Assembly (NCBI GenBank): GCA_021014325.1
Contig: JAJGQC010000631.1
Location: 186,001-250,000, forward strand
DNA from: Plazaster borealis
Lineage: Eukaryota > Echinodermata > Asteroidea > Forcipulatida > Labidiasteridae
Direction of reading: 5' to 3'
DNA: 64,000 nucleotides
The notes below the pieces were generated by a model. That model did not search any database. It had not been told where the DNA came from and saw nothing but the letters and a program-made list of their open reading frames with translations. The position numbers were made by a program, and so were the translations under genes. The number at the start of each line of letters is the position of its first letter. Position 1 is the first letter of the stretch. Shown piece after piece: positions 5,704 to 36,020 of the stretch.

Positions 5704-8700
5704 GTAAGAAAGTTATTAATTAACCCTGCATGCCCTGCGCTGCGAGACGAGGCTTCCAAAAGATTTCGCTCATCCCATGCCCCACCAGCCTCATTATAGG
5801 AAGGCACTTTTAATTATAGGGTAATTAAGTCTGTTTGGGGGTGGTGGGGTTGGGGTGTGTGGGGGGAAGCGGGGGACTTTTAATTATAGGGTAATTAAGT
5901 CTGTTTGGGGTTGGTGAGGTTGTGGGGGGAAGTGGGGGAGTGGGCAGTGGGCAGTGGGTGGTGTGCAAACAGCTTCAAATCCTTGAAAGCTGCAAACAGA
6001 TCAGCAGGGCCACTTCAGAGCTGTATATAAGAACACACTGGTGAAGAGGGATTGTTTAACAAAGGGAAATATAGTCCACACACCAAGTGGCCCTGCATTC
6101 TATAGTTACTCCCTTATCCCATGTACGCATGTCAAGGGGGGGTGCCACAAGCAAACTTCAAAGGGTCATGGACATGGTGACCCAATAGTGAAACTCAACC
6201 CATGGATGACTTTACTATCCTAAAAGGGGGGACCTAAAAATTAAGGTTGATAAAAGTTGCACTAAGATACTGCATTTTTGCAAACAAAACAGAATTGTAA
6301 AAAAAAAATTAACAAACATGCAATACCCAACAATGCATTTTTTGAAAATTATTTCGAACTTAATAGAAATGTTTAAGCCCTTAACAATTTTAGGGCAGGG
6401 AACTGCATGAGCTTGAATCCGTAATCTTAGCAAAACCCCAATTTAGGGGCCCCCAAAAAAAAAAAAAAAAAAACACACTCCTTCTCCCAGTCCTTTAAAG
6501 GAACGTTACAGAACTGGTAATTAAAATTTTCTTTAAGATCACAGATTTACATAAAACTTACACGGTCTAATGATGATGATAGTAGAAAACATTCCTAGAA
6601 ATATTTCTGTCTGAAATGCCATATTTGATGAGAAATAAATAAAACTAATTTCCGATTGGAGTTTATCGCTCATGAGCGTTTTATTCATGCATTGTATAAC
6701 ACATGCAAATGTGTAATCGGTTTTTCACTATTTTACTAGTGACCCAGATGGCCGATCGATCTCAAACTTCTACAGGTTTGTCAGTTTATGTATATGGTGG
6801 ATTATATAGAGTGCTTACACTGTTTTGTGAGCAAAAACCAATTCTGTAATGTTCCTTTAAATATACTTAATAACTTCTTCCCTGTTCTCACAAGAAACTT
6901 GTTGTACATGTTGTAAAATTAACTATAAAACTATGTTACAACTTTACAGTTACACTATCTACAGGGCCCAACTTTCAAGTGAGAACAGGGAACAAGTTAT
7001 TAATTATTTAAAGGAGTAGTAGAGGGCATACTTTGTATATGGTTGGGGGTTTTTATGATTTTGTTTTTAAGCTTTTGCAGAAAACTGTGACGGCTTCTTC
7101 ATCCATTGCCAGCATCCTTCCTTTGGCAGAGATGCCACTTTTCTGGATTTACCCAGATTTCCAGTTTTTAAAAAACTTTTTTCTTTTTCTTTTTAAATCA
7201 AGCTTGAATAAAATTTTAATTGTTTCGCCTCTCTAGCAAGTCCGCTTTGCAATAAGCGATTTTCGCCAAAAATATTAGTTTATATCGTAAATGTCGTAAT
7301 TTTCCTCTTTTTACGGCTCGGTGAGTTGTATGCCTGATTTGAACTTAAAGGCACTGAACACATTTGGAAATTGTCAAAGACTAGTGTTCTCATTTGGTGT
7401 AGGCCTATCCCAACATATGCATAAAATAACAAGCCTGTGAAAATTTGGGCTCAATTGGTCATCGAAGTTGCAAGAAAATGATGAAAGAAAAAACACCCTT
7501 GTTGTACAAATTTGTGTGCTTTCAGATAGGAATCAAAACTTCTTGCAAGAAGTTTTTATTATTTTAGTGAGAAATTACCTCTTTCTCAAAAACTATGTTA
7601 CTTCAGAGGGAGTCGTTTCCTACAATGTTTTATACTATCAACAGCTCTCCGTTGCTTGTTACCAAGTAAGTTTTTATGCTAATACTTGTTTTGAGTCATT
7701 ACCAAACGTGTACGATACCTTTAAGTGCTCGGTGCTACTCTTTTGGAAATTCAATGTTGGCATCTCTGCGATGATTGCTCTGCGATAATTTGTCACAATG
7801 GTTACCACTCGCTGCATTCATTCAGTGGCTTTCTGCTTTTGTCTAAGGAAAAATAATGTTCAGGGTATCTCTGTTTTGGGGCACAGGGAGATGTACACTC
7901 CTTGGTGATTGATTATTTATTCTACATTTTTGTTCTTCTTTTTAGTGTGTTGATTGAAAACACACCGTTGAAGGAGCTACAGAGGCGAGGGGTTTGTCTT
8001 CTTAAGCTTCGCCTAGTCAACCGATCCACAGGGCTCTATGGGAGAACGCTGGTCAAGTTTGCACCCAACAAGGGGCATGGTGATGGTAATCTCCCTGCTC
8101 ATAAGCTAAGCCCAGGTAAAGTAAAGTCTGTCCCCAGCCATAGGCCCCCTATAGATCATCAGGCCGGTATTTTTAAAACTGAGAATATTTATATTCCCCC
8201 CTGGGGAAGGATGCCAGTCCATCACAGGTTACTCCCCTTGTACCCCTGGGTGAAGAGAAGCAATAATGGTTCAGTGTCTTGTTTAAAGGGCACAAGTGTC
8301 ATGACCGGGACTCGAACCAATACGCTGCTGATCAGAAACACCAGAGCTCGAGTCCAGTGCTTTTATCCGCTCGGCCATGACACGCCATTAAGCCCAGGTA
8401 CCTACTATATATTGCTGTGAGATTTTTAAATTTTTGTTTTTATGAGAGATCACCTAACATCACAAGGCCGGACGGCCACTTTTTTTTTTATCCACCCTTT
8501 TTTTGTTCCTCCGATTATTATTTTTAAAGGTATCGTACACGTTTGGTAATGACTCAAAACAAATATTAGCTTAAAAACTTACTTGGTAACGAGCAACGGA
8601 GAGCTGTTGATAGTATAAAACATTGTAGGAAACGACTCCCTCTGAAGTAACGTAGTTTTTGAGAAAGAGGTAATTTCTCACTAAAATAATGAAAACTTCT

Positions 8701-11700
8701 TGCAATAAATTTTTATTCCATCTGAAAGCACACAAATTTGTACAACAAGGGTGTTTTTTCTTTCATCATTTTCTTGTAACTTCGATGACCAATTGAGCCC
8801 AAATTTTCACAGGCTTGTTATTTGATGCATATGTTGGGATACACCAAGTGAGAACACTGGTCTTTGACAAGTTCCAAACGTGTTCGGTGCCATTAAATAA
8901 ATAAATAATAGTACTGGGTTCTTATATAGCGCTTTATCACACCCCTAGGGGCGTATCAAAGCGCTCAGTATTTTGTCCTGCAAGTTTTTTTTTAGCTACG
9001 TTTTGAAGTGTGAGACCTTTTTCCTTTATAGCACCATGTAATAGTTTACAAGGTGCTGTGGCGCAATATGCTGTCGATCAAACCAGGAACACCGGAGCGA
9101 ACCCCTTCACTTATCGATAAGTGCATTGGGTTCTTTTACGTGCATTACACAACACACGGGACCAACGGCTTTACGTCCCATCTGAAGGACGCAGCAATAA
9201 TGGTTAAGTGTTTTGCTTAAGGACACAAGTGTCACGACCGGGACTCAAATCCACACTCTGATGATTAGAAACAACTGTTCTTGTATTTCATATCCCCATC
9301 AATTCAACTACCACCAGAGGCACAATGCCACCTACTCCTAGGGTTGAAACAGGGTTACCCCCTTCACAGTCCGTAAAGATGTAGGCATGGGTATCATCCA
9401 CTAGGAGCCTGGCTGGTATAGCAGAATGCAATTATGCAATACCTTCCCAACTTTTTACAAAGCAATTATGGTTAAGTGCCTTTTTCAAGGGCACAAGTTT
9501 CATGACCGGGATTTGAACCCAAACTCTAGAAACACCAGAGCTTGGGTCCGGTGATCTCGACACGACACAATCATACCAAAGATTAATATAATTCTACGGT
9601 CAACCTAAAACTTTTCACAGTCTTATTTTTTGAGAATTCTAAGCTGCTGGAATTATTGAAATGCGCAGTCAAGCTTATTATCTGCAGAGCTGACATTTTT
9701 CACAACTTCCACTGAATGCTTTAACAAGACATAAATTGTTAAATTACTTACAGGTTTTACCCTTGTTTTGGCTGAGGTGATGAGGCAAGACTATCAATCA
9801 GCTTTTCAGTAGTTTACCCTGAGATTTTTTTATCTTTTCAGTTGTACTACATGTATTTCCCCACCCCTTCCCCAGTTAAAATATCACCAGTGGAAATAAT
9901 CCAGCACAGTTACCATATTTGGATTTGTATTGTCACAAATTACAACAAGCCAACCGATACAGCATCACTGGATGGGATAGCATCAACATTTATTATTTTA
10001 AAAATGTTGAATCTAATTTTACGTTCTTCTAATAGGAGACATCGTTGGAGTTGGCCTATCCCATGGGGGCGGAGCCTCCTCAACAGATGATCCATCAGGC
10101 ATTGTGTCAAAGGTCAGCCAGACGTCCATCACCGTCGCCTTCGACCATAAAGATACTGAGGATGGACCTGTGACCTTTGACCATGAAGGACTGTACAGAT
10201 TGACCAAGTTGGCCAATGATGTCACGTATAGACGTCTGAAAAAGTAAGTAGCTCACCATTTTACAGTCCTGTTGCTTCATTTTTATATATTTTGTTAAAT
10301 GCAAGTTTGCCCCAAACAAGGCTTACAGGCACTGTACACGTTTGGTAATTACTCAAAATATATATTAGCATAAAAACTGACTTGGTAACGAGCAACAGAG
10401 AGCTGTTGATAGTATAAAACATTGTGAGAAACGACTCCCTCTGAAGTAACGTAGTTTTTGAGAAAGAGGTCATTTCTCACTAAAATAAAATAATAACAGC
10501 ACCTTGTAAACCATTACATGGTGCTATGTAAAGGAATAGGTCTCATACTTCAAAATTGTAGCCCCGCATACCTTGCGGGAAAACTTACTGTTTGTCTGTT
10601 CAAGCGCCTTGAGTACCTTCTTGGTAGATACGTGCGCTATATAAGACTATATTATTATTATTATTATTAAAACTTCTTGCAAGAAGTTTTTATTCCTATC
10701 TGAAAGCACACAAATTTGTACAACAAGGCTGTTTTTTCTTTCATCATTTTCTTGCAACTTCGATGACCAATTGAGCCCAAACTTTCACAGGCTTGTTATT
10801 TTATGCATAATGTTGGGATGCACCAAATGAGAACACTGGTTTTTGACAATTACCAAACGTGTACGATGCCTTTAAAGCCACTCTACGTAAGGGGCTATGC
10901 AATTAAGAAAGTATTTAAAGTGGAAATAACTCAGGGGAGCTGAAGGTAGGAATTGATATTCCTCTTAAAAACAGTCTAGATTGTAGGATGGAGGGAAACA
11001 TGCACCAGGCAAGGAGTTCCAAAGAGATGCAGTACATGGAATAAAGCTGTTTGAATGGCTCTTTGTTCTACATCTCAGCAGAGCTAGAGTGTATGGGTGA
11101 GAAGAAGCAGAAAGCCTGGTTTCACGCTCAAACATCCTGATAGGAGGAACCAGGTCGGACACACTGGTGGCACATTTACCATGAAAATATCTGTAGAAAA
11201 GACAAGAGGCTGGCTACAGACCTACAGTGGGAAAGAGGTTGTATTGCTCATCCCAACCCTTCACAAACAAGATTAACAATACGCTTCTGCACTCTGTCTA
11301 ATAAAGATAAATGAAAGGCAGAAGCTTTATGAAGGCGATACGAGCGATAAACAATACTGTGCGCCCTCTATAGTTCCATGAGAGGCCATGTTTCCAAAAA
11401 GTAAAACTAAAAAACAAAACCACACTTGCAACTTTGCACAAACTGTAAAATTACCAAGTGTTAGATTTGTTCAGCTAAAATTTTCTTTTAAAAAATAGGG
11501 ACCAATGCAAAACATTTAAAACAAAATGTTTTTCCGTGGTTGTTACTATTATTAGTTAACTTGGCCATAGATACGAGATACCAATATACAGAAAATCAAA
11601 TTAAGATGAACAGTAATTATGGCTCTTTTTCATGGGCTTGGGCTTGAGCTTAGGTTTCTTCAGTTAAAGGTACACTTTGTTTCAGATGGCAGTTTGGGCT

Positions 11701-17700: not shown

Positions 17701-20700
17701 CAATGAAACCAAGGATGCCTCATTAGTGAACCTTAATCACTTTAGCTCGCAAGCCTGAGGAAACCTGTAAACAAGGGTGCTTGCAATGTGAACCAGAAAC
17801 ACCGGGTTAACCCCTACTCTTCCACAATTAGTGTTCTGGGTTCTTTAACGTGCACTACCAATCCTAGTACACGGGACCTACGACTTAATGTCCCATCCGA
17901 AGGACAAAGCAATTATGGTAAAGCATCTTGCTTAAGGATACAAGTGTCATGACTGGGACTCGAACCCACACTCTGCTGATCAGAAACACCAGAGCTTGAG
18001 TCCCGTGCTCTTAACCACTCGGCCACGACATTCTGATAAACGATAAATGACGTCATAATTTATTAATGTGGTCTGAGCAACAAAGTAATATCTAAAAAGA
18101 TACGACGTTATTGAATTAAGAACTATGACGTTATTCCCCATCAACTACACACGGTGCAGATTAGTGCAACAAATTCGTATCTTCAAGATACGACCTCTTG
18201 ACCGCATGTATATTGTTATTGCAGAAAGGTTGTATCAACAATTATCATGGTAAATTAGGCATCAAACCTGCTTTATAGATAATTAAAGGGTCTGTACACT
18301 TTTGGTAATGACTCTGAAAATGAATGGCAATAAAAACTTGCTTGGTAAGAAGTACAGCAGCTTTGGAATGCATTTTGAGAACCTTTTCACTTCGAAGAAC
18401 TGCGGTTATGGAAAAAGATATCACTTTTTATCCCCAAAAATTTGAATCTGAGAAGCGTTACTGCAGTAAAGTTTCTCAGATAGTGTATTCCAAATGCAGA
18501 TTATTCTTGCGTAGACATAACCGCTCCAGATTTTCGGCAATATCACAAAAAACGCTACCACCTTTTGAAATGAAATTTGTACTGGTTAGTTTTATGGTAT
18601 ACAACTATATAGGATTGAAACAAACAGTGGATTTCAATTAACAAACGTATACAACATGTACATTCCCTTTAAGTGTTGATATAACTTTTAATGTTTTTAT
18701 TTTAAATTTCTTCATAATTCTTTTAAGCAATCCTGTATCATGCCTATAAAACTCAATATATAACCCACCGTTGTCCAAAACAGATCCAGTTATCCAAGTC
18801 TAAACAAGGCAAGGAGAAACGCCACCTCCGGGACGAGGCCAAGATCCTCCGCAAGGAGCTTCGAGAGCGGGAACGGCACGCCATCCGAGAGATCCTCCAG
18901 CGCGCCGACGTCGTCTTAGCAACCAACACCAGTGCCTCGCTGTCGGGACCTCTAAGTTACCTCCCCAAGGATCATTTTGATCTGGTGGTTATTGATGAGT
19001 GTGCTCAGGCTGTGGAGGCGAGCTGCTGGATCCCACTCCAGTACGCTCCTCGCTGTATCCTCGCTGGAGATCATCAACAGCTACCGCCAACTATTCTCTC
19101 AGACAAGTGAGATAGCTTTCTGATATTAGAGGTTTCCACTGCTCTCATTTCATCCTGTGTGTTTTACATGTAGTTTATAATAAGGGACTAAAACTCCTTG
19201 CCTGGTGCATGTTTCCCTCCATCCTACAATCTGGACTGTTTTAAGAGGAATATCAATTCCTACCTTCAGCTCCCCTGAGTTAATTTCATCTTACATATTT
19301 TTCCTTTTGTAGCCCCTTACCAAGAGTGGCTTTTAGCCTTGTTTGGGGCAAATTTGAATTAGGCTGGGACTACTACTTTAGCTTATAGGATCGTAATTAA
19401 CTGTACTACCGCGGAGTCAGTTCTTGGATTGGTCTCAACGTTTCGACTAGCTTGCTCTAGTCATCGTCAGGAGACCAGACAAGTCCAGCAGTCTCCTGAC
19501 GATGACTAGAGCAAGCTAGTCGAAACGTTGAGACCAATCCAAGAACTGACTCCGCGGTAGTACAGTTAATTACGATCCTATAAGCTAAAGTAGTAGTCCC
19601 AGCCTAATTCTATACCTTCCGCCCAGGTAATAGTTAATAAACAAGACAGTTCTTTTCAGAACTGAGAAGTCTCCCGAACACCCGAACAATCTACTCCGCG
19701 GTAGTAGAATTAAGCAAGACAGTTCTCTAAGAACAAACTCTACCTGGCAAGTAGATACACACATGGTGTTACCGCAAACCAAATAATATATTGATAATAA
19801 TAATACTAATAAAGCCGAACACAACCAAAGTGTTTCTATTTATGAAGCCCTCAACAGGGAAAAGGTCTAGAATCGGGGGTTACACAATAACCCCCCAAAA
19901 AGGTGTATTAAGAAGAATGTTTTCCAATACCTGGTGTCCTTCTTTGTATGGGTGGATATTTCCGTCAGTCAAAAGAGTGATCAGCAGAGTCGACCCAAAT
20001 CAACTGCCACTAGGGGCACGTTGCCACACCTACTCCTGGGGCTGAAACAGGGTTAACCCATTCACAGCCAGGGCTCGATTTTTACACTCGACCGCAGGCC
20101 CGAGGCCAGTGGTTTTAGTGTCGGGCCTGTAAACCTTTGACCAGACAAGTCCAGCAGTCTTGTGTTTTACAATTGAATAACAATACATCACAGTGTAATA
20201 TCTTTAACGGAAACAAATTATGTTCAAATGTTGACCTTGAGTCTGGAAAAGACCTTTCAATTCTGTTGAGTAATGAAGTATACTAACCCCAAAAGACAGA
20301 TGAGATCAATCTTCTCTTACATGTCTTAGTGCTTAATTGTTCAAGTAAAAACAGTTGAATCTATATAATAAACTGTATTAGGACTCAGGAAGTTTTTTCT
20401 CATTTCGATTCTGGTCTTGTTCACAAATTTCTGGTCCAGTAAAAATGTTGAGCTACAAGCCCTGCAGTCTTGTGGATTTTTTTCCCAAACTCGAGCCCTG
20501 ACAGCCCGTAAGGATGAAGGCATGGGTACCGTCAACTAGGAGCCTGGCTGGTAGAGCAGAATGCACTACCTTCCCAACTTTTTACGAAGCAATTATGGTT
20601 GAGTGACTTGCTCAAGGAAACAACAAGTGTCAAGACAGTTCTCTAAGAACAAACTCTACCTGGCAAGTAGATACACACATGGTGTTACCGCAAACCAAAT

Positions 20701-23700
20701 AATATATTGATAATAATAATACTAATAAAGCCGAACACAACCAAAGTGTTTCTATTTATGAAGCCCTCAACAGGGAAAAGGTCTAGAATCGGGGGTTACA
20801 CAATAACCCCCCAAAAAGGTGTATTAAGAAGAATGTTTTCCAATACCTGGTGTCCTTCTTTGTATGGGTGGATATTTCCGTCAGTCAAAAGAGTGATCAG
20901 CAGAGTCGACCCAAATCAACTGCCACTAGGGGCACGTTGCCACACCTACTCCTGGGGCTGAAACAGGGTTAACCCATTCACAGCCAGGGCTCGATTTTTA
21001 CACTCGACCGCAGGCCCGAGGCCAGTGGTTTTAGTGTCGGGCCTGTAAACCTTTGACCAGACAAGTCCAGCAGTCTTGTGTTTTACAATTGAATAACAAT
21101 ACATCACTGTGTAATATCTTTAACGGAAACAAATTATGTTCAAATGTTGACCTTGAGTCTGGAAAAGACCTTTCAATTCTGTTGAGTAATGAAGTATACT
21201 AACCCCAAAAGACAGATGAGATCAATCTTCTCTTACATGTCTTAGTGCTTAATTGTTCAAGTAAAAACAGTTAAATCTATATAATAAACTGTATTAGGAC
21301 TCAGGAAGTTTTTTCTCATTTTGATTCTGGTCTTGTTCACAAATTTCTGGTCCAGTAAAAATGTTGAGCTACAAGCCCTGCAGTCTTGTGGATTTTTTTC
21401 CCAAACTCGAGCCCTGACAGCCCGTAAGGATGAAGGCATGGGTACCGTCAACTAGGAGCCTGGCTGGTAGAGCAGAATGCACTACCTTCCCAACTTTTTA
21501 CGAAGCAATTATGGTTGAGTGACTTGCTCAAGGAAACAACAAGTGTCATGACAGGGTATCGAACCCACCCTGGGCTGCTGACAACAAAAGTAGGTCAGCT
21601 CTACAAAGGGGTCTATTGTTAGAAGCTATTGTTAGGAACCACAATTGGTTCTTAAGGGTTTAACTTATTAGAAACCCTAGACTTGTAATCAATCAAATTA
21701 ATCATTTACAAATGAAAGCATGGGTCTGCTTTGTGTAAACCTTGAGGTTTTTATGATAACTGTCAAGTGCTAAGCTAAGAAGTCCTATATTACTAGTGAA
21801 GTGGGTACAATCGGTGCGATAGAAAGAGCCTCTGTTATGGTATTGACATTTCGAACAGTGCACTCTGCTGCCCATCCACTCATCCACACCATGTACAGCT
21901 GCAAACAACACTTAAAGGTACAGGGTTTGTCCTTAACTTTGTCATGACACACCACACCTCTGGTTGGCTGAAACACCGTCACTTGGGGTAAACTAATATA
22001 GGCTAGTGCATGAGATTTGCGCCACCGTGAACTAGATGCGCGTAGACATTGCGCAATTTGCGTAATTCCTGAAGCGGGCAATATACTTCACATTTTTTAC
22101 TGGTTACAGCGCCCTCTCAGATGTGAACAGTTAACAGCATCTTAAAAAACTGAATCTGGGGAAACTAGAAGTTTTCCTTTAATTGTTGAATTGCTTATAA
22201 GATATAATTGCTCATGATCATTGAGTTAACTGTTGAATCATAACAGTTCAGTTATAAAACCTGAAAAGTTTATTTTCTTATTTCATATATTTTAGACCGA
22301 GGTGTGTTATAAAACACATATATGGACGGGCATAATTCAGTCACTAGTGCACGTCTCCCCCCCCCCCTCGGGAAATAGGTCTCTCTTCTGGTCACTCAAA
22401 TTCCCTCGGGGGGGATACACGTGCTCTAGTGACCTCATTGCCAGTCCATTTGTGTATAATATAAGAACCCATTATTCTTATTATACAGAGCTGCAGCAGA
22501 CGGCCTGTCTGTGTCCCTCATGGAGCGTGCCGTCAATCTCCACTCGGATCAAATCATCAAGATGCTAACCACCCAGTACCGCATGAACGCTGCCATCATG
22601 CAGTGGAGCTCAGACGAGCTCTACGAGAGCAGGCTGACCGCCGCCGACTCCGTCTCTAGACACCTCCTGGCAGACCTCCCCGGGGTGGAGGAGACAGAGG
22701 ACACCTTGGTTCCACTGGTTCTCATCGATACGACAGGCTGCGATATGTACGAGCTTCAGTTAGAGTCGGAGCAGTCTAAGGGTAATGAGGGCGAGGCGGA
22801 CCTCGTTGTGGTTCACGTAGAGAGACTTCTATCCAGTGGATTACGGGCATCGGAGATTGCTGTTATTGCTCCATATAACCTACAGGTACAACATAAATAT
22901 ACTTTTATCCTCATTATCATTCTCCCTGTCACACAGGGCAACTTTTACAGGCAACTTGGAGGCAACCAACTGCAGTGCATGCTACAGGACTACTTTGGTA
23001 GCACATGTGGGTGGCATGGTTGGCTTGTGCGTAAAGCGCTCGCCTCTCACCAAGGTGACCCAGGTTCGATACCCGGCCAGGGCCATATGTGAGTTGAGTT
23101 GTGTGTTGGTTCTCTGCTGTGCCACGAGTGTTTTCCAGACCATCCGGTTTTCCTCCCTCGGAAAAAATCAAACACTTTCGATCTCTGGCTGTGATCCGTG
23201 GTCATAAAGGGTTGATGTGGCTGGCTGCCAAAGGCGCCCTTGCATGCCTGCTTCTCGAACACGTTGTAGCCGCGTCCTTCGCAATTCAGCTCTTAGCTGC
23301 CAGTAAGGATGATTAGCCTCCAAAATTATTATTATTATTATTACATGAGTAATTTTTCAAACAGTGTCTTACGATCTCTAAGAAAAGGTGGTGGGTTCGA
23401 ATCCCACCCGAGTAACGTGCCTTTGGATGTCTTTAACAGGACTCCGGGAAAGTACTGAGTATACAGTAGTTTACACACATCAATGTAAGGTTAAAACCAA
23501 AAGAAATAGTATTCTTTATCCCCAATGCAAATTTAAAGGGACTGTACACATTTGGTAATTACTCAAAATATATATTAGCATCAAAACTTACTTGGTAACA
23601 AGCAACAGAGAGCTGTTGATAGTATAAAACATTGTGAGAAACGACTCCCTCTGAAGTAATGCAGTTTTTGAGAAAGAGGTAATTTCTCACTAAAATAATA

Positions 23701-26700: not shown

Positions 26701-29700
26701 GGCGCCATTTGCTTGCCGATACGCGCAAATTTTTGCCGGTAATTTCACACAAAACATCAAGGGAAAACCATACAGAATGCTCCAGATTGCACAGTAGGGC
26801 TTTTAGAACCAAGATAAACACCAAGTAGAAAACATTCCGAAGACCTTGTTTCAATTCAGCGTGCTTCGGCAAAACATCCAACAATTAAGTAGCTTTGAAT
26901 CGCCCGCTCATGTTCGGAGATATTGAGTCATGAAATGGTCTATACACAGGTGTAGAATGGGTACCTGTGAAGGCAGAGATTGTTTGTGATTAAGTTAGAT
27001 TGGTGTGCTACAAATCATTTAGCGTGTCATTGCCGCGGGGTTTAGTTCATCGGCTTCAAGTTTTGGTGTCTGAGTCATGAGGGTATGGTAAGGGAAAAGT
27101 CAAATTTAATTTTGTGATGTACTCATTTTCCAATAGGTATAATCCTTATGTGAGTGTGGAAAAAAAATTACAAGTCTCTAGCCCCACGTTAAAATGGTGT
27201 AAATTTCTATTGCATTCGATACCCTTCCAGTGCAAAATTTGCAACATCCAATACATCTGATGACATCATTCTTAGAAAAATGGGTCTGTACATTTTGTCT
27301 GTAGGGGGATGTTTTGGTTCATAACTGACTTTTCAGAGCGAAGTTTGAAACATGACGCCATTGGATTTCAACAACTAATGGGTCTTTACATTCCAAGGAG
27401 GAATATTTCGCCAGACAAAATATCGAATTCAAGGCCGTAGAGACCCATTTTTCTCAGAATTATGTCATCCGATATTTTGGATGTTGACAAATTTTGAGAC
27501 CATAGCGGCCAGTAACGGTTTGTACCAAATTGCCCATAGCGGCTGCAAGATGTGACCTACTTCAACTCAAAAGACAAATTGTACTGATCTGCTGAGAACA
27601 GATTTATCTTTTGCTTATTAAGTACTTTCTTTTTAAAGTAGATATGTACACATCGTGTTACCGCAAACTGAATAAATATTGTACATTGTTTCTATTTAGG
27701 GGAAGTTGGTTTCTTAGCTGAAGATCGTCGGATCAACGTTGCAGTCACACGAGCCCGCCGTCACGTCGCAGTCATCTGCGACTCGGAGACAGTCAGCCAT
27801 CATGGATTCCTGAAGAATCTGGTGGAGTACATGTCGGCAAACGGGGAGGTCAGGAGTGCGTTTCAGTATCAAGAAGGTGAGATTTGTTGCAATATTGCTG
27901 AGCATTTCATCGTCATTACGTGAAACTCTCATTAGCCAAAAACTCTAAATTCTAAACACCAGGTTACTTACTCTTTTCAGCTGTTATTATAAGATAAACA
28001 CTGCACCCTGGCACCTTCGCACAGCTACACAGTTTTCAGAATGGGAAGGAGGCCTCTTGAGGGTGCTATTGTGCAAAAAACAAGTAAACAATAAATGTGT
28101 CCACATGATCAATTTATCACTAAAATTAATGGTGCATGAAAGGGTTAAGCAGATTCTAGTGCTGAACATTTTTCTGCTCAGCAAAAAAAAAGGAAACCAG
28201 TTGCAAATGGTACATACGACATGGTATTTTAGCTGGTAACCTTTTTCTGGTTAGTAACATTATTTTGTGCTTAGCTAATTTTTGTGCTTAAGTATCTTTA
28301 CGAAACTGGGCCCTGCCACTTGTCTTGTTTTTGCCGGAACTTTCCCAATTTCCGAGTTTAAGTATTCCACCATGACCATCTTTATACCATGTAAGTTATG
28401 TGCAAATCTGTGAACATTAAATTTTAAGTTGTAAACCACAAGGGAAACTGACTGGGTAAATTTGAAATAATTTTGGGTTGAACAAAGACAAATTTTCTTT
28501 GTTTATTTCAAGTCATTTCAAATTTACCCAGTCAGTTTCCCTTGTGGTTTACAACTTGATATTTGAAATTAAAAAGTCGCATCCCCTTAAGGTGATCCCC
28601 TGGCTGCCGCTTCCCAGTTTGTATCTTAAACTTGGGTGTGATCCCTGGCTACACAGCAGTTAACGGTTGTATGGCTTCTGACTGGCACCCCCGAACAAAG
28701 ATATTGACAAAATAGGGAGACCGCCAACACAAGGCTAGATAGCTCAGTTGGTAGAGTGCCGGCATGTTTAACCAGAGGTCGTTGGTTCAAATCCCGCTCC
28801 AGTCAATTTTTCCTTGTTCAACCCAAAATTAACATTAAATTTTGTATTTTCAATTTCACCATGTGATGGCTCACTTTAAATTCTGTGCAGCGCATCAAGT
28901 TTTCCTGCAGTTGTACTGTGCTACATAAAATTGGCTCATCATTAGTGTTAAAAAAGTCATGTATGAGTTATGGAACAAGAAAAAGAGCGGGGGGGGGTCC
29001 ATAATTAGGACCCCTCATCATCTGCATTCTACCATTCATCACACAAAGGAAAAATCTTAACATTAACACAACTTTGAACTTCGACTACAGAAATTGACAT
29101 CAACGGAAGTGATACAGCAAGACCAGGTCATCTCATCTTGAGACAAAGCAAGCAATCCTCAGGTACCGAGAAGGGTACCAGACCGAAGCAACCTCGACCC
29201 CAGGCAAAGCATTACAACATCCCTGGGAACAAGGAAAGGTTTGTCTGACCATAAAATCGAAAACCATGAGTATGTTAGTTGTCCCTCGTCCCTCAACCTT
29301 CTACTGACCCCACTCCACCCTCCCTAAATGCCCTTTGAAAATTTTCTTATAATTTGGAAACCATCATGACTTGCTTGTTCACAGCCACATGTATGATTTC
29401 ACTCTTCCCTCTATACATATTTAAACTTTAGGACTAGTCTTAAGTGCTGGTCCTAACTTAAGACTAGTCCTATCTCTTAGCATTGCCTAGGATTAATCCT
29501 AAGTTAGGAAGAGTTTGGTGAAATCGACGGCTGGTCCCTCGATGCAGGTTTAGAATTTACAATAAATATCTTTCTATTCATCCCCAGGACCTTTGACGCC
29601 GAAGCTTCTGCCAAGAAGGAGATTGAGTTGACAGAACAGGTGCAGTGCTTCTTCCAAGACCGGACTAGAGATCAAATCCAGTTTCCTCTACCCTTAACTC

Positions 29701-31790
29701 CCATGATCGACTTGTCGTTCATCAGGTCAGTCAGGCACAAGTAGAAGTAAAGATAAATAATCACGTTAGCTCATCAAAATTATACAGCTCGTTTTTGCCC
29801 GTGTTTTGAATCACTGTCCGTTTCACCGTGGTTGCGCGACCAGGCTAGCAAACTCTGCAATTTACTTGCCCCCAGGAAGTTTAAATTAGCCCAAATTTCA
29901 AACATGTATTGTCAAAACTTTATCTTTCTGATGTTTTAATGGTAGCGCTCACAGTCAGTTTATTGGTAAATAGAAACTACATGCACTCACTCAAAAGTCA
30001 GGCGTCAGGCCATTAACTATTTTTGCTTGTATACCATAGGTCCTTTTGGTTGGTAAGCAGTTTGCAACAGCTAATTCTATTTTATCAAAAGTATATTGAA
30101 TCACTTTTAAAATTTCTTATTCACATTTGAAAAAGAAAAAATATGATCATTGGGTGAAGACAAGTAGGTTTGACTTTTTAGTAGCCCACAGGGCAAGTTG
30201 AGAAGTGGCGTTTACCTGCCCACAATAGTTTTTACTAGACAATGTACGCCGGGCTAGTGTTAAGCAAGAGCCCTGATGACCCTTCATTTGATTATGACCT
30301 CTGTGTTGCAAAGACCCAATGACCATTCTTTTGATTTGGCAGTCTCCTATTTTGTCAGTCTTTCTTTTATGTGGCAAAGTTTTGTCTTGTTGTTTTGTTG
30401 GCTTTTCTGTTTTGCCTGATGGTCGCCAATAATGAGCACAAATCGAGGGAAAACAAGATGGAGGAAAACAAGATGGAAGGAAAACAAGATGGAGGGAAAA
30501 CAAGATGGAGAGGAAAACAAGATGGAAGGAAAACAAGATGGAGGAAACAAAATGGAAGGAAAACAAGATGGAGGGAAAACAAGATGGAGGGAAAACAAGA
30601 TGGAGGGAAAACAAGATGGAGGGAAAACAAGATGGAGGGAAAACAAGATGGAGGGAAAACAAGATGGAGGGCAAACAATATGGAGAGAAAACAAGATGGA
30701 GGGAAAACAAGACGGAGGGAAAACAAGATGGAGGGAAAACAAGACGGAGGGCAATTTTTTTGCATCTGCCATTTTGTTTTATATAGTTTGTTTTTGTTTA
30801 CATAATAACTCAGAATTGTTTTGCTTCAAATGTTACAGGTTGCGGAGAAACTTGGACTACACCATATCAGTGTGGGGGAGGGTAAAGATAGGCACATCAC
30901 CATCAGCAAAGAGCCAATCGCAGCCAAGGAGTCCAAAGCTGACCCATCCCATGATGCATTGGAGGAGAAGTCTCTCGACGATGCAACCACGGGGTCGACT
31001 GGAGCAGATTCAAGTGTTGATGCCGTCGTTGAAGAATTGAGAACCAAAAATCCGATGGAAGTCATCGGTGATTTGGGTCTGGACGATCAAGAAGTTTTAA
31101 CTCATAATGCTGAGGAAAGTTTTGTAGAATGCGACCGCGACACACACTTGAACCCCAGCCCAGATTTATCCAATGTGGACCGTGGGAACAACCTCAAAGT
31201 ATCTACAAAAGCCCCAGAACAATCTTCAAAAACGACGAAAGTTCGAAACCTGAGGTGAATGTGCCCAGTGAGAAGATAGATCTTTACAAGTGTAAGTTTT
31301 GTAAGAAGAAACTCCCGGCCGGTAATGTCTTCCTCCACGAAATACACTGCGAGAAAGTCAACGAGGATAAGCAACGCCTTAAGGAGACGTCTGGAGCCAA
31401 GAAGAAGATGGACAAGAGCAAACAGCGCAACCTCCTCGAGAAGACCACGGAGGAGGACTTTGACACTCTGATTGCCATGGCCATCAAGTCCGACACCAGA
31501 TGCAATTATGTCAAATGCAAGGAGAAGATCTCGCTGATGGGAGTGCTGTGTCAATTCTGTAACCGCAGATACTGCTTCGGCCACAACATGCCGGAGGTGC
31601 ACGGATGCGGGAGATGGCAAGAGCGCACGCCCGGAAGGTGGTCCACAGAGAGAAGGTCGTCAGGGCGGGAAGTGGGGTCAAGGAACGCAAGGTGGACCCA
31701 AATCTCCGGGCTCACCTGGAGCGTCAGTTGGACAAGAAACGAAACGAGATGGCAGAGAAACGGACGAGAAAATCTTCTAAGAAGAAATAG
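5627..31790 (+). CDS. IGHMBP2: IGHMBP2 (SMUBP-2) ATP-dependent 5'-3' helicase, 13 coding exons
   Basis: UPF1-like SF1B DNA/RNA helicase; the family is linked to ribosomes and translation, and human loss causes motor neuron disease (established knowledge). Seen here, with residue numbers from the spliced reading: N-terminal helix (1-26), domain 1B beta-barrel (about 27-150), Walker [10 protein letters not shown] (226-234), DECA (387-390), GDHQQLPPT (411-419), QYRM (453-456), [11 protein letters not shown] (575-585), NVAVTRARR (610-618), an R3H-like segment (about 740-785), an extra C2HC finger (905-924), an AN1 finger (about 970-1010) and a basic C-terminus. Predicted length is about 1070 aa against 993 in human. 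Exon phases agree throughout except at exon 12/13 (two possible donors) and at two one-base losses in exon 13. Introns run from 349 bp to 3.4 kb and are packed with repeats. The start is the ATG at 5627, whose peptide matches the family N-terminus. Confidence 0.96.
5712..6240. repeat. Dispersed repeat (IGHMBP2 intron 1) with an inverse copy at about 41350-41805
   Basis: GGCACTTTTAATTATAGGGT and a GTCTGTTTGGGG-rich G tract, duplicated within itself at 5810-5875 and 5876-5935. The 41350-41805 region is the reverse complement, down to the CATGGGTTGAGTTT edge. Confidence 0.7.
6499..6856. mobile_element. M2-family MITE, TTAA-flanked
   Basis: TTAA at 6495-6498 and 6857-6860; AGGAACGTTACAGAACTGG start and AATTCTGTAATGTTCCT end. 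Inverse of 2749-3098. Confidence 0.85.
6865..7010. mobile_element. Short hairpin MITE
   Basis: AATAACTTCTTCCCTGTTCT near 6868 is mirrored by AGAACAGGGAACAAGTTATT near 6983. No coding content. Confidence 0.6.
7030..7860. repeat. Dispersed repeat, split by an M1 MITE; unsplit inverse copy at 38605-38960
   Basis: Blocks such as AATCAAGCTTGAATAAA, AGCAAGTCCGCTT, GTCGTAATTTTCCTCTTTTT and CATTCATTCAGTGGC occur inverted at 38605-38960. That copy has a single TTAA (38754-38757) where this one carries the MITE. Confidence 0.8.
7349..7720. mobile_element. M1-family MITE with a local empty site
   Basis: TTAA at 7345-7348 and 7721-7724; ends AGGCACTGAACACATTTGG and ACCAAACGTGTACGATACCT. The unoccupied version, GAAC-TTAA-GTGC, is present (inverted) at 38750-38761, proving TTAA duplication. 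Confidence 0.92.
7946..8115 (+). CDS. IGHMBP2: IGHMBP2 exon 2 (domain 1[14 protein letters not shown])
   Basis: The acceptor is TTTTTAG|TGTG. The peptide includes [13 protein letters not shown] and [10 protein letters not shown], diagnostic of the IGHMBP2 beta-barrel. The donor is CCCAG|GTAAAG at 8115/8116. Twelve bases spanning this donor (8107-8118) recur at 8389-8400 as the target-site duplication of an antisense SINE, so a second donor, CCCAG|GTACCT, lies exactly 282 nt downstream in the same phase. Confidence 0.93.
8107..8400 (-). mobile_element. tRNA-derived SINE (family S1) inserted at the exon 2 donor, with 12-bp target duplication
   Basis: Read on the minus strand, the head has a box-A-like GGCCGAGCGGATAAAAGC and a box-B-like GGTTCGAGTCC, resembling tRNA-Ser/Leu. 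The body carries CTTGTGCCCTTTAAACAAG and the tail is an ACTTT run abutting 8119. The flanks are perfect 12-bp duplications, TAAGCCCAGGTA, at 8107-8118 and 8389-8400. The SINE tail now supplies donor positions +4 to +6 of exon 2. The element contains no stop codon in the gene's frame. Confidence 0.85.
8528..8892. mobile_element. M1-family MITE, inverse orientation to 7349-7720
   Basis: TTAA 8524-8527 and 8893-8896. Termini AGGTATCGTACACGTTTGG and CCAAACGTGTTCGGTGCCA. With the 7349 copy it brackets IGHMBP2 exon 2 as a long inverted pair. Confidence 0.85.
8900..9275 (-). mobile_element. S1-family SINE, long variant
   Basis: Minus-strand tRNA-like head remnant (GAGTCCCGGTCGTGACACTT), body with GGGACGTAAAGCC, CACCTTGTAAAC and a terminal GCGCTATATAAGAACCCAGT. 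Confidence 0.7.
9295..9575 (-). mobile_element. S1-family SINE, body variant with AGGAGTAGGTGGCAT
   Basis: Minus strand: TCATGAAACTTGTGCCC, CATAATTGCTTTG, CAGCCAGGCTCCTAGTGGAT, GGGGGTAACCCTGTTTC. Head degraded. Confidence 0.65.
10036..10243 (+). CDS. IGHMBP2: IGHMBP2 exon 3 (end of domain 1B)
   Basis: The acceptor is TCTAATAG|GAGACATC and the donor AAAAA|GTAAGT. The peptide has GDIVGVGL near its start and [15 protein letters not shown] at its end, matching the strongly conserved [15 protein letters not shown] of the human protein. Phase agrees with exons 2 and 4. Confidence 0.95.
10327..10871. mobile_element. M1 MITE interrupted by a repeat insertion
   Basis: Ends AGGCACTGTACACGTTTGG and CCAAACGTGTACGATGCCT|TTAA. 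About 10489-10668 is an inserted S1 tail (CACCTTGTAAACC, GTGCGCTATATAAGACTA, ATT run). Confidence 0.75.
11725..11976 (+). mobile_element. S2 composite repeat: ~230-bp body plus tRNA-like head, 5' part
   Basis: AAAAAGTCGCATCCCC... body, then TATAGCTCAGTTGGGAGAGC and GCCGGCTTGTTAA, a tRNA-like D arm and GTT anticodon region. Cut at 11976 by the next element; the rest resumes at 12741. Confidence 0.65.
11977..12740. mobile_element. ~765-bp non-autonomous DNA element inserted in the S2 SINE
   Basis: Terminal inverted repeats: GGAGCTTCTCAAAAG at the left and CTTTTGAGACGCTCC at the right. A TAA on both sides suggests a 3-bp TWA target (PIF/Harbinger-like, inference). No transposase frame. A related ~120-bp deletion derivative is at 14938-15054. 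Confidence 0.6.
12741..12790 (+). mobile_element. S2 SINE 3' part, up to the exon 4 acceptor
   Basis: TAATCCGGAGGTCACAGGTT then CATGTCCCGCTCTAGTC and AATTTGTCTTTGTT, matching the tail of the copy at 28733-28815. It supplies the pyrimidine tract of the exon 4 acceptor. Confidence 0.65.
12798..12919 (+). CDS. IGHMBP2: IGHMBP2 exon 4 (linker to RecA1)
   Basis: The acceptor is TTTTTACAG|AGCTC and the donor GGCAG|GTAAGG. The peptide contains [16 protein letters not shown], aligning with GPASSLIEVLFG in human. The pyrimidine tract before the acceptor looks like the 3' part of an S2 SINE. Confidence 0.93.
13005..13790 (+). repeat. Two tandem ~384-bp units, each with a hammerhead-like motif
   Basis: Unit 1 starts at 13005 and unit 2 at 13389, highly similar through CATGCAATGCCTCAAATCC. 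Both carry CTCACTCCGCGGCAGTG and GACAGTTCTTTTCAGAAC. A third unit of the family begins at 19491. Tandem units of this size with a hammerhead motif recall animal retrozymes and Penelope-like terminal repeats (established for those groups; membership here is inference). Confidence 0.75.
13395..13438 (+). ncRNA. Hammerhead-ribozyme-like motif
   Basis: GTCTC stem I / CTGACGA core / GACTAG...CTAGTC stem II / GAAA / TGTT / GAGAC stem I. One unpaired T lies between the core and stem II. Stem III would be two pairs, the last a U-G wobble, so a dimer would be needed. The sister motif at 13011-13054 has a damaged core (CCGACAA). Confidence 0.5.
13800..14050 (+). mobile_element. 3' end of a non-LTR retrotransposon (CR1/L2-like)
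   Basis: T-rich region, then GGGCACATCCATCACAAGC, GGATGATGCCTCCATGTGC and AATAAATGTTCTATTGAATT ending in TTGAATTGAA, the kind of short tandem tail CR1-like elements have. No ORF remains. Confidence 0.5.
14062..14330. repeat. Dispersed repeat M4, inverse of about 27110-27500
   Basis: Blocks TCGAATGCAATGGCAATTTA, ACCATTTTAACATGAGGTTA and AGAGACCCATTTTTGTCTGA recur inverted around 27170-27460. Confidence 0.65.
14381..14550 (+). CDS. IGHMBP2: IGHMBP2 exon 5 (Q motif and Walker A)
   Basis: The acceptor is CGTTCTAG|GTTC and the donor TTGAAG|GTAAGG. It encodes the Q-motif region [16 protein letters not shown] and Walker [17 protein letters not shown]. The catalytic lysine of GKT is near residue 232. 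Phase 0 at its 3' end. Confidence 0.97.
14653..14959. repeat. 24-bp inverted repeat flanking ~260 bp
   Basis: CATTACGGGAAAGCTCCATT(AAAG) at 14653-14676 and its near-perfect inverse at 14936-14959. Confidence 0.7.
15330..15540. repeat. Short tandem AAATCTCCCTGATT repeat
   Basis: AAATCTCCCTGATTATAGAAAC-type unit (about 45-65 bp spacing) repeated five or six times. Confidence 0.7.
16306..16506 (+). CDS. IGHMBP2: IGHMBP2 exon 6 (motif Ia)
   Basis: Acceptor GATGCAG|GTTC, donor ACAAGG|GTAAGT, 67 whole codons. It encodes [19 protein letters not shown] (motif Ia), [11 protein letters not shown] and VRKEIDQTR, all conserved in IGHMBP2. Confidence 0.97.
17226..17564. mobile_element. Hairpin MITE, ~165-bp arms
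   Basis: Left arm (GGGATTGGGCG, TGATCCACACAAATATGCC, TTTTACTTCGTGAACT) is mirrored on the right to CGCCCAATCC. Tip CAAAATGGTGG / CCGCCATTTTG. Confidence 0.8.
17690..18035 (-). mobile_element. S1-family SINE, long variant
   Basis: Minus-strand head: GTGGCCGAGTGGTTAAGAGC and GGTTCGAGTCCCAGTCATG; body with GACATTAAGTCGTAGGTCCC. Head well preserved (tRNA-Ser-like). Confidence 0.75.
18287..18668. mobile_element. M1 MITE, TCTGTACACTTTTGG subfamily
   Basis: TTAA 18283-18286 and 18669-18672. Carries CGCTCCAGATTTTCGGCAAT, the marker of this subfamily (others at 24085, 47395, 52226). Confidence 0.8.
18784..19106 (+). CDS. IGHMBP2: IGHMBP2 exon 7 (motifs II and III)
   Basis: Acceptor CAAAACAG|ATCC, donor AGACAA|GTGAGA. 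It encodes the basic domain 1C segment ([13 protein letters not shown]), [27 protein letters not shown] (Walker B) and [11 protein letters not shown] (motif III). Noticeably more GC-rich than the surrounding intron. Confidence 0.97.
19432..19475 (-). ncRNA. Hammerhead-like motif, palindrome left arm, minus strand
   Basis: Exact inverse of 19491-19534. Confidence 0.55.
19491..19534 (+). ncRNA. Hammerhead-like motif, intact core (palindrome right arm)
   Basis: GTCTC-CTGACGA-T-GACTAG-AGCAAG-CTAGTC-GAAA-CGTT-GAGAC. Predicted cleavage after the GTT triplet; AACGTT is self-complementary, as in dimer-dependent hammerheads. Confidence 0.55.
19716..21547. repeat. Tandem duplication, 916-bp period, two copies
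   Basis: 19716-20631 and 20632-21547 differ at about three positions (e.g. CATCACAG/CATCACTG, AGTTGAATC/AGTTAAATC, CATTTCGATT/CATTTTGATT). Each copy holds an S1 SINE fragment (minus) split by a CAGGGCTCGA...TCGAGCCCTG MITE. Junction sequence AGACAG is shared by both ends. Confidence 0.95.
20077..20502. mobile_element. MITE with CAGGGCTCGA ends inside an S1 SINE (duplicated at 20993-21418)
   Basis: Begins CAGGGCTCGATTTTTAC and ends AAACTCGAGCCCTG. It separates the SINE's TTAACCCATTCACAGCC from CAGCCCGTAAGGATG. A partial relative is at 40117-40250. Confidence 0.65.
22489..22885 (+). CDS. IGHMBP2: IGHMBP2 exon 8 (motif IV, start of RecA2)
   Basis: Acceptor TTATACAG|AGCT, donor CTACAG|GTACAA, phase 0 at the end. 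It encodes [29 protein letters not shown]-like [29 protein letters not shown] and [10 protein letters not shown]. All are family landmarks in the right order. A Deu-like SINE lies about 110 bp downstream. Confidence 0.97.
22996..23342 (+). mobile_element. tRNA-derived SINE (S3), Deu-like body, TTA tail
   Basis: Head GCGCTCGCCTCTCACCAAGG and GGTTCGATACCCGGCCAGGG; body GTTGGTTCTCTGCTGTGCC, CCGGTTTTCCTCCCTCGG; tail ATTATTATTATTATTAC. In IGHMBP2 intron 8. Confidence 0.7.
23537..25781. mobile_element. Cluster of head-to-tail TTAA elements (M1 family)
   Basis: Elements 23537-23902, 23907-~23938 (truncated), 24085-24465, 24506-25060, 25065-25400 and 25405-25781. Several neighbours share a single TTAA (23903-23906; 25401-25404) or TTAG (25061-25064). 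An S1 SINE fragment is at about 23939-24025. The cluster ends 68 bp before exon 9. Confidence 0.8.
25850..25973 (+). CDS. IGHMBP2: IGHMBP2 exon 9 (motif V)
   Basis: Acceptor TGAGATCAG|GTGG, donor AGCAGAG|GTAATA. It encodes [20 protein letters not shown] (motif V) and [10 protein letters not shown]. The exon sits between dense M1 MITE clusters, the nearest copies ending at 25781 and starting at 26062. At 124 nt, skipping it would shift frame. Confidence 0.97.
26062..26429. mobile_element. M1 MITE downstream of exon 9
   Basis: TTAA 26058-26061 and 26430-26433; AGGCATCGTACATGCTTGG start. Opposite orientation to 23537-23902. Confidence 0.85.
27110..27510. repeat. Dispersed repeat M4
   Basis: Inverse of 14062-14330; contains two internal inverted GGGTCTNTACATT segments. 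Confidence 0.6.
27700..27876 (+). CDS. IGHMBP2: IGHMBP2 exon 10 (motif VI)
   Basis: Acceptor CTATTTAG|GGGA, donor GAAG|GTGAGA. It encodes [20 protein letters not shown] and then [12 protein letters not shown], motif VI with the arginine finger region, then [17 protein letters not shown]. The sequence just upstream resembles the tail of the hammerhead-bearing repeat at 19750. Confidence 0.97.
28017..28447. repeat. Dispersed repeat, donor of the copy in the IGHMBP2 3' flank
   Basis: 28108-28447 recurs almost unchanged at 31947-32285. Its first part (ACACAGTTTTCAGAATGGGA to ATGGTGCATGAAAGGGTTAA) also occurs at 58255-58422, so it is a genomic repeat. Confidence 0.85.
28426..28557. repeat. 43-bp inverted repeat with 46-nt loop
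   Basis: AAGTTGTAAACCACAAGGGA... at 28426-28468 is mirrored at 28515-28557. Confidence 0.9.
28560..28815 (+). mobile_element. S2 composite repeat with tRNA-like head
   Basis: Body AAAAAGTCGCATCCCC, then GCTAGATAGCTCAGTTGGTA, GCCGGCATGTTTAACC, TTGGTTCAAATCCCGC and CAGTCAATTTTTCCTTG. The most complete S2 copy here; a body-only copy is at 62260-62420 and a head copy (minus) at 35930-36020. Confidence 0.7.
29091..29238 (+). CDS. IGHMBP2: IGHMBP2 exon 11 (low-complexity linker)
   Basis: Acceptor CGACTACAG|AAAT, donor GAAAG|GTTTGT. It encodes a polar, basic linker ([18 protein letters not shown]) between the helicase core and R3H, where the human protein is also poorly conserved. It is assigned by phase continuity and an open frame in the right place, so it is less certain than the motif-bearing exons. 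Confidence 0.75.
29385..29535. mobile_element. Short MITE with TTTCAC...GTGAAA ends
   Basis: GATTTCACTCTTCC near the left, GAGTTTGGTGAAATCG at the right, with inner TTAGGACTAGTCTTAAG-like palindromes. Confidence 0.5.
29588..29729 (+). CDS. IGHMBP2: IGHMBP2 exon 12 (start of R3H-like region)
   Basis: The acceptor is ATCCCCAG|GACC. The peptide has [20 protein letters not shown] and FPLPL, matching the beginning of the IGHMBP2 R3H domain. Two donors are possible: 29725|GTCAGT has the better consensus but the wrong phase for exon 13; 29729|GTCAGG gives phase 0 and an alignment without gaps. The second is used here. Confidence 0.8.
30446..30750. repeat. 16-bp minisatellite GGGAAAACAAGATGGA, ~19 copies
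   Basis: Lies in intron 12, ending about 90 bp before the exon 13 acceptor. Strong purine bias on the sense strand. Because 16 is not a multiple of 3, all three frames run through it and give repetitive false ORFs on both strands. Confidence 0.97.
30839..31790 (+). CDS. IGHMBP2: IGHMBP2 exon 13 (R3H end, C2HC finger, AN1 finger, stop), two frame breaks
   Basis: Acceptor TGTTACAG|GTTG. It begins [18 protein letters not shown] and continues HITISK, the end of an R3H-like fold. Next come an acidic linker and, in another frame after the A5 run at 31228-31232, [14 protein letters not shown]...HEIHC and [15 protein letters not shown]. The AN1 finger follows ([34 protein letters not shown]). After the GGG at 31609-31611 the conserved tail [10 protein letters not shown]...[12 protein letters not shown] continues in a third frame to TAG at 31788. 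Each break is what losing one base from a homopolymer would produce. Conservation on both sides argues for an assembly error or a very recent lesion. The segment from 31713 is duplicated at 32286. Confidence 0.88.
31228..31232 (+). other. IGHMBP2: Apparent one-base loss in an A run (IGHMBP2 exon 13)
   Basis: Upstream reading ends at a stop at 31256. The frame encoding [15 protein letters not shown] and the C2HC finger is one base back. One additional A in this run of five would join them. Confidence 0.65.
31609..31611 (+). other. IGHMBP2: Apparent one-base loss in a G run (IGHMBP2 exon 13)
   Basis: After HGCG of the AN1 finger the conserved ARAHARK tail continues one base back. One extra G would restore a colinear match to the family, with no room for an intron. 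Confidence 0.75.
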
Positions 31791-32519
31791 TTATAAGAAA
31801 AACTATAATAGTATAAACTTGTGGGTACAACCATGTATAAAACTCTTTTGGGAGAAGTGTTCTCAGTGCGGTCTTGACGTTTTGAACAGTATACCCTGCT
31901 CGTCTTGAGGAGAAATAGTTAGGATTACTGAAGCAACTCTGCCATGATCAATTTATCACTAAAATTAATGGTGCATGAAAGGGTTAAGCAGATTCTAGTG
32001 CTGAACATTTGTCTGCTCAGCAAAAAAAAGGAAACCAGTTGCAAATGGTACATACGACATGGTATTTTAGCTGGTAACCTTTTTCTGGTTAGCAACATTA
32101 TTTTGTGCTTAGCTAATTTTTGTGCTTAAGTATCTTTACGAAACTGGGCCCTGCCACTTGTCTTGTTTTTGCCGGAACTGTCCCAATTTCCGAGTTTAAG
32201 TATTCCACCATGACCATCTTTATACCATGTAAGTTATGTGCAAATCTGTGAACATTAAATTTTAAGTTGTAAACCACAAGGGAAACACCTGGAGCGTCAG
32301 TTGGACAAGAAACGAAACGAGATGGCAGAGAAACGGACGAGAAAATCTTCTAAGAAGAAATAGTTATAAGAAAAACTATAATAGTATAAACTTGTGGGTA
32401 CAACCATGTATAAAACTCTTTTGGGAGAAGTGTTCTCAGTGCGGTCTTGACGTTTTGAACAGTATACCCTGCTCGTCTTGAGGAGAAATAGTTAGGATTA
32501 CTGAAGCAACTCTGCCATG
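31713..32519 (+). repeat. Duplicated IGHMBP2 3' terminus with a templated 339-bp insert
   Basis: 31713-31946 (last 25 codons, stop and start of 3' UTR) is repeated exactly at 32286-32519. Between them, 31947-32285 is a copy of intron sequence 28108-28447 with only a few changes. Confidence 0.95.
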
Positions 32520-32936
32520 TCAAGGAGTGCAAGGTGAGAGAAACAGACAAGAAAATCATCCAAGAAGAAATAGTTATACAAAAAACTATATTAGTATAAA
32601 CTTGGGGGTAAGTTGACTCTCGTTATAACAAGATCGCTGGGACTGGCCAAATAACCTCTTTATAATAGGAACGTTGTTATAAGAGGACAGCAAAACAAAG
32701 AAACACAAAGCAGAAATGAGATTCAGGACTTCAGAATGTACTCTTTATAAGCAGAACCTTTTTATAACGTGCTCTTTATAACGAGGGTTGACTGTATAAA
32801 ACTATTTTGGGAGTGTTGGTTCTGAGAAGGGTCTTGACGTTTCGAACAGTATATTTTGCTCGTCTTCAGGAGAAATAGTTAGGATTACTCAAGCAACTCC
32901 GCCATGTCAAGGAGTGCAAGATGGACCCGGTCACCC
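32520..32936 (+). pseudogene. Older decayed copy of the IGHMBP2 terminal exon/3' UTR, split by a MITE
   Basis: GAAAATCATCCAAGAAGAAA to AGTATAAACTTGGGGG and then ATAAAACTATTTTGGGAG to GCAACTCCGCCATG repeat the 31770-31946 layout with about 10-15% change. A further start (TCAAGGAGTGCAAG) at 32910 is cut by a SINE. Confidence 0.75.
32605..32797. mobile_element. MITE with GTTGACTCTCGTTATAAC ends (Tc1/pogo-like)
   Basis: AGTTGACTCTCGTTATAAC start and TTATAACGAGGGTTGACTGT end, TA-flanked. A sister copy (CAGTCAACTCTTGTTAAAAC) is at about 34540-34730. Superfamily from the ends only. Confidence 0.65.
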
Positions 32937-35929: not shown

Positions 35930-36020
35930 ATGAAAAATGGACTAGAGCAGGATTTGAACCAACGACCTCCGGATTAACGTGCTGGCGCTCTACCAACTGA
36001 GCTCCCTAGCCCTATGTTGG
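35930..36020 (-). mobile_element. S2 SINE tRNA-like head
   Basis: Minus strand: GGGCTAGGGAGCTCAGTTGG, TAGAGCGCCAGCACGTTAA, GGTTCAAATCCTGCTCTAG. The acceptor arms pair, but the anticodon stem does not, and the S2 tail (TTGTTCAACCC) follows, so it is a SINE and not a tRNA gene. Confidence 0.7.

Follow-up and report, generated by a model that had tools for sequence, protein, structure and literature searches.

What happens to a gene when a SINE lands across one of its splice donors and leaves two copies of that donor behind? IGHMBP2 (SMUBP-2) of the starfish Plazaster borealis raises this question at the end of exon 2, within the 64-kb stretch of DNA analyzed here (the window, part of contig C534). 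We modeled the gene by homology, which also served to position its splice donors, and exons 1 to 10 of the window contig join as one open frame of 656 residues. The modeled product is 93% identical to SMUBP-2 of Asterias amurensis and 78% identical to that of Acanthaster planci. Exon 2 (7946..8115, plus strand, 170 nt, placed by homology) follows the acceptor TTTTTAG|TG, ends at the upstream of the two donors (donor 1), and codes for part of SMUBP-2/IGHMBP2 domain 1B, based on matches to Pfam PF21138 (4.4e-17) and PDB 4b3f/4b3g (2.7e-10). Exon 3 (10036..10243, plus strand) joins in phase to donor 1 or to the downstream donor (donor 2), and skipping of exon 2 shifts the IGHMBP2 frame. The open reading frame entering exon 3 (9776-10087) had no match in a Pfam search.

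Other repeats and tRNA matches were seen in the window. One IGHMBP2 intron contains a 924-nt direct tandem duplication (19715-20638 and 20631-21554, 99.6%). The end of the last IGHMBP2 exon (31713-31951) has a direct duplicate downstream at 32286-32523 (99.6%), adjoined by a 345-nt repeat (31943-32286) with a 98.8% copy at 28104-28448, in an upstream intron of the gene. Directly 5' of the last exon lies a 16-nt tandem repeat, GAGGGAAAACAAGATG, of about 19 copies (30445-30751) with several frames open, and at 36269-37749 about 65 copies of a 23-nt unit stand in tandem. Rfam matched tRNAs at 28733-28805 (plus strand) and 35939-36011 (minus strand); the first sits within an IGHMBP2 intron and was called as tRNA-Asn by ARAGORN too.

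The insertion site was read directly from the sequence. The 12-mer TAAGCCCAGGTA occurs twice in the window on the plus strand (8107..8118 and 8389..8400), with no copy on the opposite strand, and this duplication is more than chance. The upstream duplicate spans the end of exon 2 and the GT of donor 1 (CAG|GTAAAG, 8113..8121, cut at 8115|8116), and the downstream duplicate spans the AG|GT of donor 2 (CAG|GTACCT, 8395..8403, cut at 8397|8398), on the original intron side. A first-pass annotation had described a SINE insertion whose target duplication covers the exon end and the GT, and the sequence agrees; its coordinates for both duplicates and its sequences for both donors are exact in the window. 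It had also presumed the downstream copy to be the original donor, and the empty site reconstructed by joining the flanks does read CAG|GTACCT. A genome search with exon 2 and its flank for an allele lacking the insertion returned two exon 2 copies, both carrying the SINE, so the pre-insertion donor is reconstructed from the joined flanks.

The tail of the SINE accounts for the rest of donor 1. SINEs of this family end in a CTTTA-type tail, which reads as TAAAG in antisense, and donor 1 is thus composed of duplicate plus tail, with positions +4 to +6, and possibly +2 and +3, contributed by the SINE. The first-pass annotation had assigned +4 to +6 to the tail, as the family comparison bears out. 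It had given the target duplication as 12 bp; the two 12-nt copies are indeed identical, but the final TA of the upstream copy may itself be SINE tail, so that the true duplication is 10-12 bp. The two donors are 282 nt apart (94 x 3), and the gene frame from 8115 to 8397 contains no stop, just as had been annotated for the window contig.

The insert is a 270-nt antisense SINE, probably of tRNA type (8119..8388, minus strand), recognized by a family search, with its 3' tail at the low coordinate. It is repeated in the genome, with at least 41 matches on many contigs when the best 40 of 4058 first-look candidates were scored. Several full-length copies share the 5' start TGGCGTGTC and the CTTTA-type 3' tail. 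Two copies, L013 and L021, each have their own 13-bp target duplication; these are clear cases, and such cases alone were used, as an automatic duplication finder returned short doubtful matches for many family copies and none for others. The B-box pattern was matched, with a B-box-like motif, GTTCGAGTC, at 8309..8317 (minus strand), and the A-box pattern used here was unmatched. Neither ARAGORN nor Rfam called a tRNA within the insert; the head of the SINE presumably resembles a tRNA, as judged by eye and by motif. An Rfam match to SNORA41 was rejected as sub-threshold (19.8 bits against a gathering score of 80). The window SINE differs by 9.6% from the majority sequence of 38 other copies (249 columns), and those copies differ from that majority by 0.4-8.9%, figures biased by the choice of the 38 as the closest-scored to the window SINE rather than at random.

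A second copy of the locus allowed the insertion to be compared between alleles. Exon 2 with its upstream flank had two matches in the genome, on the window contig and on C518, each 100% over 259 nt, and the same search found no copy on any other contig, chromosome-scale contigs included. C518 (136 kb) aligns to C534 near both of its own ends (98.4% and 97.6%) and matches the window over about 42 kb, split into five colinear blocks (97.8-99.5%), in a comparison covering C518 outside 8,001-58,000 and 98,001-128,192. These alignments are as expected for a haplotig, and on this evidence C518 is the other haplotype of the window locus, both haplotypes coming from one individual. The C518 pieces retrieved (L002, L009-L012, L051, and L052) and C534 have the look of two small contigs that are haplotigs of one locus.

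C518 carries the SINE, both duplicates (again 12/12 identical), and both donors, and its exon 2 is identical to that of the window (170/170). The SINE itself differs by four substitutions (1.5% over 265 columns) and by a 5-nt deletion in C518 that overlaps the B-box-like motif. Because the window copy is 9.6% from the family majority and the haplotype copies differ by 1.5%, the insertion, by sequence comparison, predates the divergence of the haplotypes. The deletion places the C518 donors 277 nt apart, so that splicing from donor 2 would give a stop inside the extension followed by a frameshift (window position 8397 corresponds to C518:65807). From donor 1, the protein encoded by exons 1-3 is the same on both haplotypes.

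We considered whether this deletion could be an assembly error. Over the aligned stretches, exons 1-5 and 8-10 show no haplotype difference and exon 6 has one mismatch. Three single-base haplotype differences shift the frame, two in the last IGHMBP2 exon on the window contig (~31243 and ~31609) and one in exon 7 of C518. These may be assembly errors, as they are scattered and the assembly, of which ~42 Mb is unanchored, was built from Nanopore reads at a stated error rate of 0.00023 (PMC9270726). The same paper lists 25.63 Gb of Illumina and 7.28 Gb of Nanopore RNA data for this starfish. Both contigs thus carry error-like changes, and the 5-nt deletion could be one more; this is less likely, given the four substitutions nearby and the stated error rate.

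We compared the two donors by the energy of their duplex with U1, under a general model trained on no starfish. Donor 1 pairs at -9.4 kcal/mol and donor 2 at -7.1 kcal/mol; among 1500 sampled GTs, 0.27% are as strong as donor 1 and 2.7% as strong as donor 2. Donor 1 ranks sixth among the ten donors of the gene model. Each donor matches the consensus at 7/9 positions, and donor 1 has A rather than G at +5. Donor 2 is not incompetent, since the exon 8 donor (CAG|GTACAA), whose use is supported by homology, has the same energy of -7.1 kcal/mol.

We consider it likely, reading from the sequence, that donor 1, rebuilt from the duplicate and the SINE tail, does the normal splicing and that the SINE has become intron. 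Several results point to donor 1 as the main site: it pairs better with U1; exon 2 and donor 1 have stayed constant between haplotypes while the SINE has changed; and the donor 1 product has no insert separating the exon 2 part from the exon 3 part, like all 16 homologues aligned there (from the best 120 of 7694 matches listed). The SINE is probably harmless in its present position, and donor 2 may be used at a low level.

The sequence of events would be as follows. Before the two sampled haplotypes separated, a tRNA-type SINE would have inserted in antisense across the donor that ends IGHMBP2 exon 2. On the upstream side, the final exon bases and the donor's G(T) would have survived in the target duplicate, and the remainder would have come from the CTTTA-type tail, as antisense TAAAG, so that CAG|GTAAAG was present at once; this anatomy is read from the sequence, and the competence of the new donor is what we infer from it. 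Splicing from donor 1 to exon 3 would then yield the normal protein, with the SINE as the first 282 nt of intron 2. Donor 2 would be a leftover: spliced from it, the C534 allele would encode a 94-residue loop insertion and the C518 allele a truncated frame. At the time of insertion, splicing from donor 2 would probably have truncated the protein, judging by majority-like family copies L014, L016, and L017, which have three to five stops in the gene frame when placed at the site, and donor 1 would have served from the start.

Besides its GT, the second duplicate brings an AG, a point that the first-pass annotation did not mention. The 282 nt from 8116 to 8397 begin with GT and end with AG, and their excision restores the original sequence to the base. 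In principle the SINE could thus be spliced out separately, between the GT at 8116 and the AG at 8397, regenerating CAG|GTACCT, which would then be spliced to exon 3. We regard this as unlikely, and the same applies when the second duplicate is viewed as a site of recursive splicing around a zero-length exon. The base-exact GT and AG given by a duplication that spans AG|GT are in its favor, as are precedents: introners take splice sites from target duplications (PMC9860276), and fungi have introns nested at a donor, called stwintrons (PMC12403724). The candidate acceptor is poor. It (TGACACGCCATTAAGCCCAG, 8378..8397, plus strand) has a weak pyrimidine tract, with a pyrimidine fraction of 0.47 against 0.60-0.87 in the nine acceptors of the gene model, a value that equals the median for the window's 1713 YAGs. 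Nor is any such step needed if donor 1 is spliced straight to exon 3. The final mRNA would be identical by either route, so that conservation of the protein is no argument against prior excision, and splicing intermediates alone would distinguish the two.

A rival reading is that both donors are used, the second yielding a genuine isoform in which domain 1B is longer by 94 residues. The spacing of 282 nt (94 x 3) and the absence of stops are what suggested it, and the first-pass annotation had called the extension optional. We measured how unusual this frame is in three ways. In 4000 dinucleotide shuffles of the insert, the given frame was open in 1.05% and any of the three frames in 3.4%. Among sampled 282-nt stretches of the window, 260 of 18,206 (1.4%) were free of stops. 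When the 38 other family copies were placed in silico between the window duplicates, two were stop-free, ten were in phase, and one was both, with lengths and phases approximate because copies were trimmed by local alignment plus six bases; the remaining 36 had a stop in the gene frame. The open frame is thus only mildly unusual, a coincidence of the order of a few per cent.

Comparison with homologues gave no sign of the extension. At the junction, the Gly (G83 of sequence P0001) and I85 are invariant and D84 is nearly so in 25 aligned homologues, drawn, like the 16 lacking an insert, from the best 120 of 7694 matches listed. When the extension was used as query within the whole protein, none of the 16 candidates reached E 0.001. 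These protein searches are weak for Plazaster, with no Plazaster entry among the best 120 of 7694 matches listed. The 94 residues alone, used as query, returned nothing usable and one weak match covering 29% of the query (P0121). P0121 is a 139-residue unnamed ENA open reading frame, with 81% identity over that 29%, which corresponds to the antisense SINE head. It is probably another chance frame through the same repeat head.

In the structure that AlphaFold2 predicts for A. amurensis SMUBP-2 (mean pLDDT 68.6), the junction lies at the end of a loop (residues 67-84), before a strand (85-90), and an insert there would not be structurally absurd. The insertion point (Gly83/Asp84 of P0001) falls where 10-residue blocks of the model have pLDDT 68-80. 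The downstream duplicate also re-encodes LSPG, so that the GDIVG motif would be retained in the long form. These points favor a two-donor isoform, as does the match in strength between donor 2 and one homology-supported donor of the gene.

The strongest result against a maintained isoform is the frame break between haplotypes. The alternative frame is open on C534, while the 277 nt of C518 put it out of frame with a stop, and it is therefore not kept on both. Together with the homologues lacking an insert, the empty search for an extension protein, the openness compatible with chance, and the better U1 pairing of donor 1, this makes a real isoform quite unlikely, and the option put forward in the first-pass annotation is not supported. 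The 94-residue extension could arise from the window's allele only and is probably incidental.

The surroundings of exon 2 suggest one further possibility. Self-comparison of the window revealed a pair of inverted MITE-like arms, upstream at 7345..7725 (minus strand) and downstream at 8524..8896 (plus strand), which together enclose exon 2 and the SINE. The arms are 94% identical over 380 columns, have TTAA-like ends, and have a predicted duplex energy of -602 kcal/mol; one arm compared with the window gave 13 matches in all, partial ones included. Inverted repeat pairs favor exon looping and circular RNAs. This pair could form a long hairpin, give rise to an exon 2 circular RNA (170 or 452 nt), or be subject to A-to-I editing. 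That the insertion damages the gene, with donor choice disturbed, exon 2 skipped or read through, and the locus declining, is nonetheless highly improbable: near-complementary arms could loop out the 170-nt exon and so shift the frame, and single-base frame differences are present on both contigs, but the ten exons form an open frame 93% identical to A. amurensis, nearly all aligned exons are the same between haplotypes, and the scattered differences are possibly assembly errors.

Literature searches on duplicated splice sites, introners, recursive splicing, exonization, and starfish SINEs provided precedents, and none of the titles listed concerns this locus. In canine merle, a reverse-orientation SINE lies at a PMEL exon boundary, and a target duplication of 15 bp surrounds the splice site that was there before (PMC7349775). 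The likeness is of a reversed SINE at an exon boundary that offers alternative splice choices; merle involves an acceptor and a phenotype, whereas in the starfish a donor is involved, the upstream duplicate is a good donor, and the protein is apparently unchanged. Introners resemble the starfish insertion in that a duplicate gives GT upstream and AG downstream and excision would restore the original sequence, but they form families, most with signs of DNA transposition, that create new introns across many genes (PMC9860276). The starfish element is instead a retroposon that landed on a donor already present, and its removal as a separate intron is hypothetical here.

Stwintrons and recursive splicing are alike in having an inner intron that abuts an outer donor and is removed in two consecutive steps. 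They differ in that [D1,2] stwintrons split the donor between nucleotides 1 and 2, with the fungal ones described as lacking a target duplication (PMC12403724), whereas the starfish donor is abutted and unsplit. Exonization of antisense SINEs such as Alu is similar in that coding sequence from an antisense SINE could enter an mRNA. Alu exons use splice sites within the element, while both starfish donors lie in the target duplicates. Cryptic splice sites in Alu are mentioned in PMC7349775.

More speculatively, and with only a small chance of being right in our view, a retroposon whose target duplication spans the AG|GT of an existing donor might make for a self-effacing insertion. The upstream copy, together with the tail, would serve as donor and the downstream copy as a joined acceptor and donor. 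The element would become the start of an intron or else a nested one with a zero-length exon, and from one haplotype it could be read as a coding extension too. The same choice of splice site would in that case have two outcomes in one animal, extension from one haplotype and truncation from the other.

Returning to the reading in which donor 1 does the normal splicing, this locus carries a caution: a repeat that can be read without a stop in a single assembly contig says little for the existence of an isoform. The heterozygous animal provides an internal control for use of donor 2, since its two haplotypes differ by a frame-breaking deletion and donor 2 would yield extension reads from one and decay from the other. 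IGHMBP2 of this starfish would be a base-exact example of a tolerated insertion into a splice donor, in which the donor is remade from the target duplication that the insertion created and from the tail of the element.
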